Source of the DNA: Halobacteriales archaeon YIM A00013
Lineage (GTDB): Archaea > Halobacteriota > Halobacteria > Halobacteriales > Haloarculaceae
Length of the DNA stretch: 64,000 nt
NCBI GenBank assembly: GCA_025041195.1
Contig: JAKCFM010000001.1
Location: forward strand, 1-64,000
Direction of reading: 5' to 3'
The notes beneath the pieces are model-generated. The model had not been told where the DNA came from. It did no database searches and saw nothing but the letters and a program-made list of their open reading frames with translations. A program made the translations under genes and the position numbers. Shown in pieces: positions 828-6,554 of the stretch; the stretch's first letter is position 1, and each line of letters opens with the position of its first letter.

Positions 828-843
828 TTTAGGCTATCCAAAA
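828..843. promoter_or_regulatory. Probable DtxR/IdeR-type iron box upstream of the ABC ATPase
   Basis: TTTAGGCTATCCAAAA is an imperfect inverted repeat (arms TTTAGG and CCAAAA) that matches the site at 5217-5232 in 12 of 16 positions. It lies 53 bases before the ATG at 897. DtxR-family metal repressors (Idr/SirR in haloarchaea) bind TTAGGYTARCCTAA-like sites. The downstream gene is an iron-siderophore-type ATPase, which fits iron control. One arm is degenerate, so binding is an inference. Confidence 0.5.
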
Positions 844-896: not shown

Positions 897-1763
897 ATGG
901 CGAGTACAACGGAGTCTCTAACGGGCGCAATCGAAGAACAGAGCGACGACACTGAGCGTGACTCGGGGCGTGTCCAGTCGAGCATGCTGTCTGGCACCGG
1001 GCTGTCGCTTTCGTATGCGACGAGCGAGCAGCCGGTCGTAGAGTGTGAACGGATCGACATTCCTGAGGGAGAGATCACGGCGATCGTTGGTCCGAACGGC
1101 AGCGGCAAATCGACGATGTTGGCCGCACTCTCGGACCATCACACGCCGGATGCGGGGTCGGTCGTACTCGATGGCCAGACGATCGAGGAGTATGGGAACA
1201 AAGAGCTCGCCCGAGCGCTCGGACATCTTTCTCAGGAACACGATTCACCCGACAGCGTCACCGTTGCGGATCTCGTTGCCCACGGGCGCTATCCCCACCG
1301 CGGTCCGTTTGAATCGCTGACGGAAGCCGACGAGGCGGCGATCGAGCGTGCGCTCACGCTTGCCGGCGTCGAGTCATTGCGCGAGAAGCCGGTCGGTGAT
1401 CTGTCTGGTGGGCAAAAACAGCTGGCGTGGATCGCGCTCGTGCTCGCCCAGGAGACTGACACGCTGTTGTTGGATGAGCCAACGACGTATCTCGACCTCC
1501 ACCACCAGCTTCGGGTGATGGAGACGGTCGAACGGCTCAACGAAACCGACGACGTAACCGTTGCCGTCGTGCTGCACGACATTGCACAGGCGGCCCGGTT
1601 TGCTGACAATCTCATTGCGATGTGTGATGGCGAGTTGTACGACTGGGGCCCTCCTCGCGACGTGTTGACGGAGTCGCTGCTCGCAGACGTTTTCTCCGTG
1701 AAGGCGACCGTCGTGTACGAACCGGCCCTGCAGATCATCCCCGAACGTTCCATCAGCGACTGA
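897..1763 (+). CDS. ABC transporter ATP-binding protein, iron/siderophore (FecE/FepC) type
   Basis: This 288-aa ATPase would energise uptake of a ferric siderophore, heme or cobalamin-type substrate together with a FecCD-like permease and a binding protein, neither of which is in this window. Visible motifs are Walker A GPNGSGKST (about residue 65), the Q-loop SQEHDS, signature LSGGQKQ, Walker B LLLDEPT and the H-loop VLHD. The first 30 or so residues are an acidic, poorly conserved extension. I chose ATG 897 over an in-frame GTG at 870. The stop is 6 bases before the next ATG, so this gene and the FAD protein form an operon. The iron box at 828-843 suggests de-repression when iron is scarce. 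An orphan ATPase with its permease elsewhere is common in haloarchaea. Confidence 0.88.
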   Translation: MASTTESLTGAIEEQSDDTERDSGRVQSSMLSGTGLSLSYATSEQPVVECERIDIPEGEITAIVGPNGSGKSTMLAALSDHHTPDAGSVVLDGQTIEEYGNKELARALGHLSQEHDSPDSVTVADLVAHGRYPHRGPFESLTEADEAAIERALTLAGVESLREKPVGDLSGGQKQLAWIALVLAQETDTLLLDEPTTYLDLHHQLRVMETVERLNETDDVTVAVVLHDIAQAARFADNLIAMCDGELYDWGPPRDVLTESLLADVFSVKATVVYEPALQIIPERSISD

Positions 1764-1769
1764 AGATTC

Positions 1770-2621
1770 ATGACGACAGCAACAGGCGAAAAGCGGAATG
1801 AACCGACCAGTAGTGAGTACGACGTGGCGATCGTCGGTGGTGGCGCGGCGGGTCTTTCGGCGGCCGTCTTTACCAGTCGATACGACTGCTCGACAGTGGT
1901 GTTCGACCGGGGGCCATCGGCGATCCACCGGTGTTACAACATCGAGAACTATCTCGGCTTCGTGGGGATCGATCCCCAGCAGTTCCTCCAGCTGGGTCGT
2001 GCCCACGCCCAGTATGAGGGCTGTGAGATCGTCGATGATCTCGTCGAGACCGTCGAGCGCCCGGAGGCGCTCGACGGCGAGTTCCGGCTCGAAACACAGC
2101 AGAGCGAAACCGTGACGGCATCGCGAGTGATTGCGGCATCAGCGTACACGGCCGACTATCTCAGCTCGCTCGATGATGGTGCGTTCCACGAACCAGGAAC
2201 ACATCCCGTCGACTGCGACACAGCAACCGGTCGAACGTCGATCGAAGGGCTCTACGTGGCGGGGTGGCTCTCAGGTGAGCCCCACCAGGTGATCATTAGC
2301 GCTGGCCACGGCGCACGCGTTGCAAAATCGCTAATCACCGATCTACGGGTCGAAGCGGGCTTTTGGGACGAGGTCGCGAGCTACTGGGACTGGCGGGTTG
2401 CGGGTGGAACGTACGGCGACGCTGGCTGGAACGAACATATCGAGGAGTGGGTTGCTGAGACGATCCCCGAAGAAGAATCAATCGCAGATGAACGGCGCGA
2501 ACGCGTCACAGAAGCGATCATCGAAGAGCGTCGTTCCTTCCAACTTTCTGAAAAAGCACGCGAGCAGCGAACGGCTGATAGCCGCCAGTTGCTCGAAACG
2601 CATCTTCTTTCCGACGAGTAG
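1770..2621 (+). CDS. FAD-dependent oxidoreductase, thioredoxin-reductase fold lacking the NAD domain
   Basis: The protein has 283 aa. An N-terminal FAD-binding Rossmann motif VGGGAAGLSAA sits near residue 23, and a thioredoxin-reductase-like C-terminal FAD motif, IEGLYVAGWLSG, sits near residue 155. Between them the NAD(P)H-binding domain with its second Gly-rich motif is missing, and no CxxC redox pair is seen, so it is not a standard thioredoxin reductase. The last 90 residues are a charged helical tail. It follows the iron-type ABC ATPase by 6 bases and presumably shares its iron-controlled promoter. A role in reducing or releasing imported iron is a reasonable inference from position only. 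The electron donor is unknown. Confidence 0.8.
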   Translation: MTTATGEKRNEPTSSEYDVAIVGGGAAGLSAAVFTSRYDCSTVVFDRGPSAIHRCYNIENYLGFVGIDPQQFLQLGRAHAQYEGCEIVDDLVETVERPEALDGEFRLETQQSETVTASRVIAASAYTADYLSSLDDGAFHEPGTHPVDCDTATGRTSIEGLYVAGWLSGEPHQVIISAGHGARVAKSLITDLRVEAGFWDEVASYWDWRVAGGTYGDAGWNEHIEEWVAETIPEEESIADERRERVTEAIIEERRSFQLSEKAREQRTADSRQLLETHLLSDE

Positions 2622-2628
2622 CTCGGTT

Positions 2629-3033
2629 TCAGGGTCGAGCAGGCTCTCGTGTGCGCCCACTGCGGTAATACGCAAGGGCCGTCACCAGCGTTCCGAGGAA
2701 CCCCATCGCCGTATACCATTGAATCACGCCCATCGGTCGTGACCATCCAAGCGAGAGCATCCAGCCCCCGACAACCGTCCAGAGCGCACAGACCGCCCCA
2801 AACGTCAGCTCACCAACGCCAATCGCCGACGCGTTCGTCTGCGCTTCGAACTGGTGTTCCATCAACAGTGGTGCGATTACCAACAGCACCAGCAGCATTC
2901 CCAGCGCCACCCTGGGAACCCAGGTTTCAACTGCGTCTCCCCCAACCGCCACTCGAACGCCCAGATACGTCTCGATACTCCCGTAACCGACGACAGCCAG
3001 CTGTATTGCACGGAGTCGAACCGAAGCGCCCAT
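2629..3033 (-). CDS. Small four-helix membrane protein, function unknown
   Basis: This is a 134-aa protein with four predicted membrane helices: around IQLAVVGYGSIETYLGVRVA, ALGMLLVLLVIAPLLM, ELTFGAVCALWTVVGGWML and WYTAMGFLGTLVTALAYY. The C-terminus (RSGRTREPARP) is basic. ATG 3033 is preferred to the GTG one codon upstream. It converges on the FAD protein, with stops 7 bases apart. No family was recognised. The layout resembles many small haloarchaeal integral membrane proteins of unknown function. Confidence 0.65.
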   Translation of the reverse strand: MGASVRLRAIQLAVVGYGSIETYLGVRVAVGGDAVETWVPRVALGMLLVLLVIAPLLMEHQFEAQTNASAIGVGELTFGAVCALWTVVGGWMLSLGWSRPMGVIQWYTAMGFLGTLVTALAYYRSGRTREPARP

Positions 3034-3083
3034 CACACGCTCGTTATATTCTTACACCATATAAAATTATGCAATAAATAGGG

Positions 3084-5096
3084 TCATCGGGTGGGGACCG
3101 TACAGATTTGCACTGCATCGTTCGTGTAGAGCACATCTGACCCACGGGGGCAGACAACCGCCCGTGAAACGCGTGGCGAATGTGCCATACTCGAATTCTG
3201 ATGAAAGAGTCCGAAATAGGCCGCGCCGCGCTGTTGATAGCTCCGATGGATTCTGGTCTCGGCGGGTCGAATCACGGTTGTTGTTGTCCCACTGACGTTT
3301 CGTGTCGAGCGAGCATATCCAACGACGGTATTGGACTCGGTGCTAATCGTTGCGCTCTCCATGTTGTGCGCGAGCGTTCGATTGACCACCACCGTGTACG
3401 GATGGTCAGTAATCCAGTTCCTGGATTTGTTTTCGGCGTATTGATCAATCGCCTCAACAGCGGCCAGCTCCGCGTGCGTGAAGCTGTATCGGACCTGCGT
3501 GTTCGCAAACGGTGGGCTGTCGATGGTGCTGTCGCTCGCCAGCATCGAGGTGGTCGGATAGCAGAGAATTATCACCAGAAACACGGTGACAGCAACTCTG
3601 GGAGACGTGGTTGAGCTGAGATGTGCGAGTCCAATCACTGCGACAATCGCCATCGGTGCGAGCATGAACGCAAACCAGCGGCCAGGAACGAACGTCCGGA
3701 TGCCAAACAGTGGAAAGCCGAACACGAAGATGGCCATCATCCCTACGCTGAACACCGGCGTGAAGGCTGCCTGCGACCGATTCTGTTGCTGTAACACCCA
3801 TAGGCTCCCAACGATAGCGAGACAAAACACCAGTAGAAAGCCAGCCACATCGAGATACTCGACGATACCCTCCATCGTCGTCTGGGCAGGGACAACGGTT
3901 GCGGGCAATCCGCCAGCGTCAGCAGTTTGGCCCAGCCCCGCGGTGATGAGCGTCTCCGAGAAGTACGTGCCAATCGTCGTCAGGAAGGTGGCACCCTGAT
4001 AGGGTGTCAGCGACCACATGAACGTGATCAGTCCCAGATCGAACACCAGCAAACCGGTGAGATTCACGGTTTCCGTGGCATGTGCCATCCGCCAGCGCGT
4101 TCTGGTGGCGGTGAGTATGCCCGAACTGATCACGAGCGATGCGAGCACGGCACTGCCTGTCAACACAAGCATGATGAACGAAGAAACCTGGTGGGTCAGA
4201 ATCACTGCAACACTGAAAAAGACGACGAGAAAGAAATCCCGCGGCGTATAATCCACCTTGAGCATTCGTTCGAGCGAGTAAAACACACTGAGGAAAAATA
4301 TCAGTCCCAGACTCGTCGGAATGATATGCAGTCCCCATTCGATCACTGCCGCGCTCATTGAGTAGAGTGCCGCCGCGAGGACGGCCCAGCGCTGGCTAAC
4401 GAACGAACTCGCGGTGGCGTAGACGAGCACCACAGAGAGCGGCATTGCAATCCCAAGGACGAGATAGAGTGCGGATTTGATCGACACATCGAGCAAGAGA
4501 CTCGAACCAACGACGAGCAGGTGATAGAGCGGTGAGGCGTAGTATTTCTGGCCGCTGATCGGCTGGAGGGATCTGGCGGCGTGGATGTCTGCTGTCCAGT
4601 GGGCCATGTGGGTCCACACGTCAATGCCGATGTAGCCTGGCGTGGTGTACAGTGCCACCAACCGAACGATCACACCAAAGACGATGATCAAGAACAGCCA
4701 CAGCGTCGGCGAAATGTCCTCCTCGTCGGCGAAGATGATTAACACGAGAATGGCGGCCCCCACCGCACTGCAACAGAGATGCCAGGCGAGCGATCGTTCG
4801 CCCGCAATTCCAGCAATGAGAACCAACACCGCCATCCCAATCACGATCACTGACGGAAGCAACCGCACAGCCGTCCGTGTGAGCCGTGGGATCGCTGTCG
4901 CGCGATTAGCGCTCACCGAAAACAGATACAGTGCTGCCGCACAGCCCGTTGCAAGGGGGAGCGTCCGCGCGAACACGTCAGTGAGAACCAACTGGAGTGG
5001 TAGCAGCACAATACCCACCAGCAGGCCCGCACCAGCAACCAGCACATCGAATGGAACGTCCCTGACCTTGTCCATTGGCGATTGCTGGATACGCAT
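3084..5096 (-). CDS. Large multi-pass membrane protein, GT-C glycosyltransferase-like
   Basis: This protein of about 670 aa has about a dozen hydrophobic helices followed by a soluble, probably extracellular C-terminal region of about 150 residues with N-glycosylation-type sequons (NKS, NRT, NVS, NSS). A loop after the first helices reads GIDVWTHMAHWTADI, an Asp-containing loop in the place where GT-C (PMT/oligosaccharyl-transferase-like) enzymes carry their catalytic acid. A polyprenyl-phosphate-sugar-dependent glycosyl transfer on the outer face is therefore plausible but unproven. I prefer ATG 5096 to TTG 5126. The gene stands alone and is read leftward. It could instead be a membrane protein of other function. 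Confidence 0.7.
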   Translation of the reverse strand: MRIQQSPMDKVRDVPFDVLVAGAGLLVGIVLLPLQLVLTDVFARTLPLATGCAAALYLFSVSANRATAIPRLTRTAVRLLPSVIVIGMAVLVLIAGIAGERSLAWHLCCSAVGAAILVLIIFADEEDISPTLWLFLIIVFGVIVRLVALYTTPGYIGIDVWTHMAHWTADIHAARSLQPISGQKYYASPLYHLLVVGSSLLLDVSIKSALYLVLGIAMPLSVVLVYATASSFVSQRWAVLAAALYSMSAAVIEWGLHIIPTSLGLIFFLSVFYSLERMLKVDYTPRDFFLVVFFSVAVILTHQVSSFIMLVLTGSAVLASLVISSGILTATRTRWRMAHATETVNLTGLLVFDLGLITFMWSLTPYQGATFLTTIGTYFSETLITAGLGQTADAGGLPATVVPAQTTMEGIVEYLDVAGFLLVFCLAIVGSLWVLQQQNRSQAAFTPVFSVGMMAIFVFGFPLFGIRTFVPGRWFAFMLAPMAIVAVIGLAHLSSTTSPRVAVTVFLVIILCYPTTSMLASDSTIDSPPFANTQVRYSFTHAELAAVEAIDQYAENKSRNWITDHPYTVVVNRTLAHNMESATISTESNTVVGYARSTRNVSGTTTTVIRPAETRIHRSYQQRGAAYFGLFHQNSSMAHSPRVSRAVVCPRGSDVLYTNDAVQICTVPTR

Positions 5097-5216
5097 TCGG
5101 TACTGATCCGAATCCAGAATTGTCAACCGTATCAGTTTTGTGGTTCCGGAGCAACCAACTGGCAGTTTACGTCTCGACGGCCGAATCGCGACCCGAAGCT
5201 ATTACTCGGTCGGAGT

Positions 5217-5232
5217 TTTAGGCTAACCTAAA
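5217..5232. promoter_or_regulatory. Near-perfect DtxR/IdeR-type iron box overlapping a start region
   Basis: TTTAGGCTAACCTAAA has perfect six-base inverted arms (TTTAGG / CCTAAA) around CTAA and matches the bacterial DtxR/IdeR and haloarchaeal Idr/SirR operator style. It ends 4 bases before the ATG at 5237, so a bound repressor would cover the start of a leaderless transcript. A related copy stands before the iron-type ABC ATPase at 828-843. Confidence 0.7.
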
Positions 5233-5236
5233 GAGC

Positions 5237-5518
5237 ATGCACCAGTTATGTACACTTCGTCGACAGATTGACGAACTATCGACGGTTGCTGGGGGGTATC
5301 GTGTCGTCTGTGCCCAGTGTGGGATGGGGCCAGTCCCGGTTTCGGGATGCGCGTTCGAGACACCCAGTGGGGCCGATCGGGCACGACAGTTGACGGTTGC
5401 GTATCGTGCTCGACTTCGGGAGTTTGATCCACAGACCACGGTCCACGATCTCACCGTCCGGGCTGCGCTGTCAGGGTGTCCAGTTGGGGCTGCGAGTTGT
5501 CGAACCCACAGCCACTGA
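5237..5518 (+). CDS. Small haloarchaeal protein, probably iron-regulated (DUF7552-like)
   Basis: This 93-aa soluble protein begins LRRQIDELSTVAGGYRVVCA and contains a mixed alpha/beta core (PVSGCAFETPSGADRARQL, then VAYRARLREFDPQTTVHDLTV). It resembles small haloarchaeal proteins now grouped as DUF7552. That assignment is from memory and unverified. The iron box ends 4 bases upstream of its ATG, so expression under iron limitation is the best clue to its role. It precedes the aldo/keto reductase by 46 bases on the same strand, so both could be transcribed together. Four cysteines (VCAQC, GC, GC, SC) could bind metal. Confidence 0.6.
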   Translation: MHQLCTLRRQIDELSTVAGGYRVVCAQCGMGPVPVSGCAFETPSGADRARQLTVAYRARLREFDPQTTVHDLTVRAALSGCPVGAASCRTHSH

Positions 5519-5564
5519 GCGATCGCTCGGGTGGCTTTTTGGGATCTCACGATTACGTTCTGTT

Positions 5565-6554
5565 ATGGAAACACGACCGCTGGGCAGTACTGCCATTACT
5601 CCGACGGTGATCGGACTCGGGACGTGGAACGTAGGGCCGGCCTGGGGCGCGGTGAGTGATTCACAGATCACCGCGGCGATCGAGACGGCACTGGATGCGG
5701 GGATAACGTTTCTGGACACGGCAGAAGTGTACGGTGATGGCCGGGCGGAGCGATTGCTAGGCTCCGTGCTCGCCGATCGTGATCACACGTCGATCGACGT
5801 GGTGACGAAGGCGAAACCTGATCCGGACGGTGGCCACTCCAGGGATGGGCTCCGTGCGTCGGTAACTGGCTCTCTGGACCGGCTCGGCGTTGACTCGCTA
5901 GATCTGGTGCAGCTTCACTGCCCGGACACGCCGGCGTACTACGACCCCTCGGTTTTCGAGACGCTCGAATCACTGCGTGCGGAGGGATTGATCGATCACG
6001 CCGGTGTGAGCGTCGAACTCGTCGAACAGGCACAGAAAGCGATCGAATACCACGTTATCGAATCGGTGCAGATCATTTTTAACCCGCTCCGGTTGCGCCC
6101 GCGAGAGCGGTTTTTCGAGGCCGCAGCAAAGCGCGATGTTGGTGTCATCGTTCGCGTACCGCTTGCGTCTGGCCTACTGGCCGATGCGTTTGACGACGCA
6201 AGCACGTTCGATGCAGACGACCATCGACGCGATGCGATCGAGGAAGGCGTGACTGCGGGTGTCGGGACGAAAGGCGGTGAAACGTTCGCTGGCGTGCCGT
6301 ATGAAGTCGGCATCGAGGCAGTCGATGCCCTCAGAACGCACGTTCCCGAGGAAATGACGATGGCACAGTTTACACTCCGCTGGATTCTGGACCACGATGC
6401 AGTCACGACAGTCATTCCTGGCTCTACCTCCCCCGAGCACGTCGCAGAGAACGCGGCCGCCGCGTCGTTCGACCCACTGTCACACGAGGTCCACGGCGCA
6501 GTGACCGACAGCTACGAGGAAACCGTCAAAGCGCACGTTCACCACCGCTGGTGA
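5565..6554 (+). CDS. Aldo/keto reductase
   Basis: A 329-aa NADP-dependent oxidoreductase of the AKR superfamily with a TIM barrel. The catalytic region is visible as FLDTAEVYGDGRAE (Asp and Tyr of the AKR tetrad), followed by the Lys strand DVVTKAK and the strand LVQLHCP near the active-site His. The C-terminal dinucleotide-binding part has VIPGSTSPEHVAENA. ATG 5565 starts METRPLGS, the usual N-terminus of the family. The longer frame back to 5397 has no family support and overlaps the previous gene. The physiological substrate is unknown. Confidence 0.9.
   Translation: METRPLGSTAITPTVIGLGTWNVGPAWGAVSDSQITAAIETALDAGITFLDTAEVYGDGRAERLLGSVLADRDHTSIDVVTKAKPDPDGGHSRDGLRASVTGSLDRLGVDSLDLVQLHCPDTPAYYDPSVFETLESLRAEGLIDHAGVSVELVEQAQKAIEYHVIESVQIIFNPLRLRPRERFFEAAAKRDVGVIVRVPLASGLLADAFDDASTFDADDHRRDAIEEGVTAGVGTKGGETFAGVPYEVGIEAVDALRTHVPEEMTMAQFTLRWILDHDAVTTVIPGSTSPEHVAENAAAASFDPLSHEVHGAVTDSYEETVKAHVHHRW

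Follow-up and report, generated by a model that had tools for sequence, protein, structure and literature searches.

A predicted DtxR-type iron operator in front of a DUF7552 gene in a haloarchaeon

The DNA analysed here, referred to as the window, is a stretch of 64,000 nucleotides at positions 1 to 64,000 of contig JAKCFM010000001.1 from Halobacteriales archaeon YIM A00013. A previous sequence-only reading had pointed to two palindromic iron boxes near its beginning, and proposed that they mark a small local iron regulon including a short unannotated gene. The features of the locus are the following:

828..843, no strand assigned: the other iron box, TTTAGGCTATCCAAAA, which departs from the palindrome by one mismatch
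897..1763, + strand: Fec/Btu-type ABC transporter ATPase (PF00005, E 6.9e-29; best NCBIfam match FecE with 252 bits, below the cut-off of 375)
1770..2621, + strand: FAD/NAD(P)-dependent oxidoreductase (weak Pfam FAD/pyridine-nucleotide domains; TRX_reduct with 69 bits, below the cut-off)
2629..3036, - strand: gene of 135 aa between the oxidoreductase and DUF7552 genes; present in the sister species (G039), absent from the locus of the congener G041; judged outside the regulon
3084..5126, - strand: gene of a large membrane protein (weak PMT_2 match, below the cut-off); absent from the G041 locus; judged outside the regulon
5199..5204, + strand: TATA-like element CTATTA, seen in the sequence; the same element with the same spacing precedes DUF7552 in G041, and 23 aligned promoters have an A/T patch here
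5217..5232, no strand assigned: perfect iron box, TTTAGGCTAACCTAAA, seen in the sequence and a perfect instance of the genome-wide motif; putative operator of the DUF7552 gene
5237..5518, + strand: DUF7552 gene, an open frame of 93 aa (PF24422, E 1.3e-23; 83.4 bits against a cut-off of 27)
5515..5540, + strand: terminator-like hairpin with a T run between the DUF7552 and reductase genes (one found against 0.5 in shuffles; a consensus match only)
5565..6554, + strand: aldo/keto reductase (PF00248, E 1.1e-61); judged outside the regulon

The unannotated 93-aa ORF proved to be a real gene. Besides its match to the Pfam family DUF7552, it has a dN/dS of 0.23 against G039, as expected of a protein gene under purifying selection; it is the fastest of the four genes measured, its three neighbours ranging from 0.02 to 0.15. 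The protein keeps all 14 of the residues that are invariant in 43 DUF7552 sequences, and its AlphaFold model is a compact alpha-beta domain (mean pLDDT 86.8). A known fold was sought for this model and none was assigned, since the best VIA hit, a viral DNA-binding domain, had Z 5.1 (rmsd 3.8 over 72 residues) and the Foldseek E was above 0.5. In plasmid records the gene appears as “hypothetical protein” in seven of eight cases and is unlisted in one. Our literature search returned no paper naming DUF7552, DUF7551, DUF7260, PF24422 or PF24420, although the genes may appear in papers under locus tags; a query on iron boxes in haloarchaea brought up a single, unrelated paper.

Both boxes were confirmed at the places reported earlier: the box at 5217-5232 ends four bases before the ATG at 5237, and the one at 828 lies 53 bases before the ATG of the ATPase at 897. 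In G039 the half-sites of the former are unchanged, and one spacer base differs. We aligned the 23 DUF7552 promoters, window included, whose perfect box has its first base 14 to 25 bases ahead of the ATG. In most of them a TATA-like A/T patch precedes the box by about a dozen bases, and the start codon comes after the box; in the window CTATTA, the box and the ATG follow in this same order, which suggests a promoter role for CTATTA. Archaeal TATA elements stand at a usual distance from the transcription start, so that transcription would be expected to begin inside the box. The box had been described as overlapping the start of the small gene; this is probably true of the transcription start, while the start codon is near but not overlapped. 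The window box is single. Across the 102 DUF7552 loci described below, box pairs are frequent, with start-to-start distances of 34 to 37 bases being the commonest (61 pairs) and 26 bases accounting for 13 pairs, a spacing that may reflect two adjacent repressor dimers.

Searching the window with TTAGGCTANCCTAA, allowing up to three mismatches, returned only the 5217 and 828 sites, each on both strands. These four matches are not above chance (shuffle mean 3.09), and the significance of the motif comes instead from its count in the whole genome. The pattern TTAGGNNNNCCTAA (TTAGGN4CCTAA) has 11 perfect places in the 3.73 Mb genome. First-, second- and third-order Markov models, for which the window and 18 loci of this genome served as training set, predict 0.40, 0.11 and 0.06. 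One-mismatch places number only 11 more, though 30 one-mismatch variants are possible. A control with the reversed pattern gave five perfect places in the same genome, and 134 places against 22 for the motif when up to one mismatch was allowed; this control is high because the reversed word is commoner in this genome, and we therefore put weight on the Markov figures and on controls with rearranged half-sites. The genome-wide scan that the sequence-only reading had proposed thus reveals a density of sites that is not random. Each of the 146 genomes searched in the family has at least one perfect place.

The 11 perfect places correspond to nine loci, window included. Ten of them precede iron-type or uncharacterised genes, and one is an orphan. 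Outside the window, the perfect and one-mismatch places were distributed as follows:

L005: perfect box before a Peripla_BP_2 binding protein
L009: two perfect boxes before a Peripla_BP_2 binding protein
L012: two perfect boxes before a Peripla_BP_2 binding protein
L007: perfect box before a FecCD permease
L010: perfect box and a second, one-mismatch box before a class-III aminotransferase
L011: perfect box before an Acetyltransf_8 acetyltransferase
L008:3123-3704 (G000:C1:1250706): DUF7547 gene with a perfect box 102 bases upstream
L006:3058-3071 (G000:C1:786157): orphan perfect box with no evident gene behind it
L013: one-mismatch box 41 bases before another Peripla_BP_2 protein
L016, L018, L019: one-mismatch boxes before genes without a clear iron link
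L014, L015, L017, L020: one-mismatch places, judged chance

Judging from their families, the aminotransferase and the acetyltransferase may take part in making a siderophore. At the orphan box, an ATG three bases on opens a frame of only 16 codons, and an integrase-like gene lies nearby; in 501 bases searched for an RNA gene, Rfam gave nothing at E up to 0.1. Perhaps the box is a relic of an iron gene that has since disappeared. The proposal of a small local iron regulon can thus be kept as far as iron control is concerned, with which both window sites and the 93-aa gene agree, but the regulon is not local, having 11 perfect places genome-wide.

Behind the 828 box, the oxidoreductase gene probably belongs to the same operon as the ATPase, and is found in all seven genomes of the genus. 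The 14-base core of this box, TTAGGCTATCCAAA (829-842), is identical in the window, G039, G041, G043 and G044, and differs in one spacer base in G042 (loci L155, L160, L204, L205 and L203); this comparison covers six of the seven genomes, and in the seventh, G040, the oxidoreductase has the same place and score as in G041. The flanks of the box are conserved as well. Its asymmetry, with CCAAA for CCTAA, seems to have been kept on purpose.

The association of DUF7552 with such boxes extends well beyond the genus. PF24422 occurs at 107 places in 88 of the 146 genomes of the family, and 102 of these loci, spread over 85 genomes, were read, in most cases together with 4 kb of flanking DNA per side. 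In 85 of the 102, the 3.5 kb upstream of DUF7552 contain a perfect box, and in 18 the 3.5 kb downstream do; such counts overstate the number of events since related genomes are non-independent samples (G040 and G041, for instance, look near-identical). With up to one mismatch allowed, the figures over the same distance rise to 95 upstream and 19 downstream, leaving seven genes with no such box in the 3.5 kb upstream. Within 200 bp upstream, 38 loci have a perfect box and 44 one with at most one mismatch. Altogether, the 844 kb of loci read contain 150 perfect boxes, against at most two for any rearranged half-site. A set of 43 named loci, partly from the same species as the 102, contains 74 boxes against none for 29 half-site rearrangements; here a perfect box is found within 200 bp upstream at 26 loci, within 3 kb upstream at 37 and within 3 kb downstream at seven. 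The 93-aa protein had been placed under iron control from the window alone, and the boxes usually carried by its haloarchaeal family (85/102) favour that placing.

Siderophore-type transport genes recur around DUF7552. The flanks read contain a siderophore-type binding protein at 51 of the 102 loci and none at 51, a Fec-type ATPase at 30, an FAD oxidoreductase at 24 and a FecCD permease at 20. On a Halobellus limi plasmid, the oxidoreductase, permease, ATPase, binding proteins and DUF7552 gene stand in a row, and a Halobacterium hubeiense plasmid has the same transport set divergent from the DUF7552 gene. Two of the six plasmid stretches inspected, Haladaptatus plasmid unnamed1 and a Halorientalis stretch, have no iron-transport annotation near DUF7552.

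Within the genus, the congener G041 has a more compact arrangement: DUF5787, the box, the ATPase, the oxidoreductase and DUF7552 as third gene, followed by metallo-beta-lactamase-like and AAA protein genes, which flank the window locus too. In the window and in G039, two opposite-strand genes separate the oxidoreductase from DUF7552, and the aldo/keto reductase comes after it. Cut off from the ATPase operon, the window DUF7552 gene appears to have its own promoter and a strong predicted operator. That this box arose only once the two genes had been inserted is not borne out: G041 lacks the insertion, yet has a box with two mismatches directly before DUF7552 and CTATTA at the same spacing as the window, so that a separate DUF7552 promoter may be older. 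The window operator may have been gained, or it may be ancestral and have decayed in G041. Of the six other genomes in the genus, three have no DUF7552, which is thus dispensable. A further DUF7552 gene of G041, which also stands alone (95 aa), lies in an 8.2-kb locus, L107 (G041:C1:1520018-1528242), without any box of up to one mismatch.

Iron regulons under DtxR-family control are a known kind of system in haloarchaea. One study (PMC11349517) names Idr1 and Idr2 of Halobacterium, and Idr, SirR, TroR and a “ferR regulon signal” before fhu genes in Haloferax volcanii. For Haloferax mediterranei, another (PMC11218638) places an iron ABC transporter permease beside a NAD(P)/FAD-dependent oxidoreductase among the genes that decreased as a DtxR-family regulator increased. 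The genome studied here is similar in its DtxR-family proteins, its inverted-repeat box and the siderophore-type transport genes behind it, but DUF7552 is named as a target in none of the papers searched. The window ATPase likewise resembles those of Fec/Fhu/Btu-type siderophore importers, and FecCD permease and Peripla_BP_2 proteins stand behind boxes elsewhere in the genome; it differs from these importers in adjoining an FAD oxidoreductase and not a permease, and in reaching no NCBIfam equivalog cut-off.

Two DtxR-family genes were found in the genome, both over the Pfam cut-off. One, of 225 aa, carries a FeoA domain; the shorter one, of 149 aa, stands next to a gene whose ferritin-like match is weak (E 0.0036). 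A short DtxR-family gene is near DUF7552 in 14 of the 102 loci, which is insufficient to name the regulator. The two sites had been likened to DtxR/Idr-type repeats, and both do look like true operators of this type. The inverted repeat is enriched before iron genes, the box at 5217 lies in the predicted core promoter, and DtxR-family genes are present in the genome; it is very probable that the 16-base palindrome truly acts as an iron switch. More specifically, we estimate a probability of about 0.8 that the box at 5217-5232 is the operator of a DtxR-family iron repressor that controls a conserved accessory of siderophore-type iron uptake.

We infer the following mechanism. At high iron, a metal-loaded DtxR-family repressor would occupy the box between CTATTA and the ATG, over the expected transcription start, and by blocking initiation would keep the DUF7552 gene off. 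At low iron the repressor would leave the box, and DUF7552 protein would be produced along with the ATPase/oxidoreductase pair downstream of the 828 box and the remaining siderophore-type genes under the same control. The protein could then act in the cytosol as a small accessory of ferric-siderophore uptake, or of a reduction step beside the FAD oxidoreductase.

Three other explanations deserve consideration. The palindrome at 5217 could have arisen by chance, or could bind a regulator that has nothing to do with iron, as might be suggested by the window count, which does not exceed the shuffles, and by the five perfect places of the reversed control. Against this stand the excess of perfect places over the 0.06-0.4 expected, the iron-type genes behind most boxes and the upstream bias of the boxes over the 102 DUF7552 genes, so that we regard it as very improbable; it was the Markov expectation and the upstream bias that led us to reject a chance match. 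It is also quite unlikely, if less far-fetched, that the site is a DtxR-type operator answering manganese or another metal more than iron: the DtxR family includes manganese sensors and the genome has two members of it, but the boxes stand before genes from families of siderophore-type iron uptake.

The third explanation concerns the extent of the transcription unit. The sequence-only reading had counted the aldo/keto reductase as a possible member of the regulon, and a single iron-controlled operon of DUF7552 and the reductase would agree with their common strand, their distance of 46 bases and the gene order kept in G039. The reductase is, however, near DUF7552 in only two of the 102 loci (the window and G039) and absent from the locus in G041, and the hairpin with its T run lies between the two genes. 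In the light of this lack of conserved adjacency and of the hairpin, we rejected the reductase as a regulon member, and consider the joint operon unlikely.

With the operator reading of the 5217 box, comparative evidence places DUF7552, an uncharacterised haloarchaeal family, in an iron regulon. The family touches on the question of how siderophore iron is freed in the haloarchaeal cytosol. Most of the relatives read have DUF7552 at the N-terminal end of a longer protein of about 260-350 aa (67 of the 102 ORFs have at least 250 aa), and the other domain is DUF7551 (PF24420) in all five that were scanned. Haloferax volcanii has matches to both. The window protein shares only DUF7552 with these fused proteins of other haloarchaea and stands alone, a profile search having found DUF7551 neither in its ORF nor in the whole genome. 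In the AlphaFold model of a fused relative (L054:3989-4906), the DUF7551 part weakly resembles H-NOX, and also PoxR and subunits of TRAPP (best Z 6.8 with rmsd 4.3 for 150 residues; best Foldseek E 0.024), a likeness below the level that the tool calls trustworthy; in the five fused proteins, Pfam gave neither H-NOX nor V4R at E up to 1. A speculative possibility, which we hold to be rather unlikely, is that DUF7552, alone or with an H-NOX/V4R-like DUF7551, is an undescribed haloarchaeal iron-starvation component. With haem, a siderophore product or a redox ligand bound to it, this component would link the FAD oxidoreductase to the siderophore importer, for cytosolic iron release or sensing; in the window lineage the DUF7552 part would work alone.

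Finally, a DUF7260 gene was observed in the flanks of 24 of the 102 DUF7552 loci, in many cases directly behind DUF7552 (e.g. L097:7920-8711). DUF7260 is likely a second uncharacterised family of the iron regulon.
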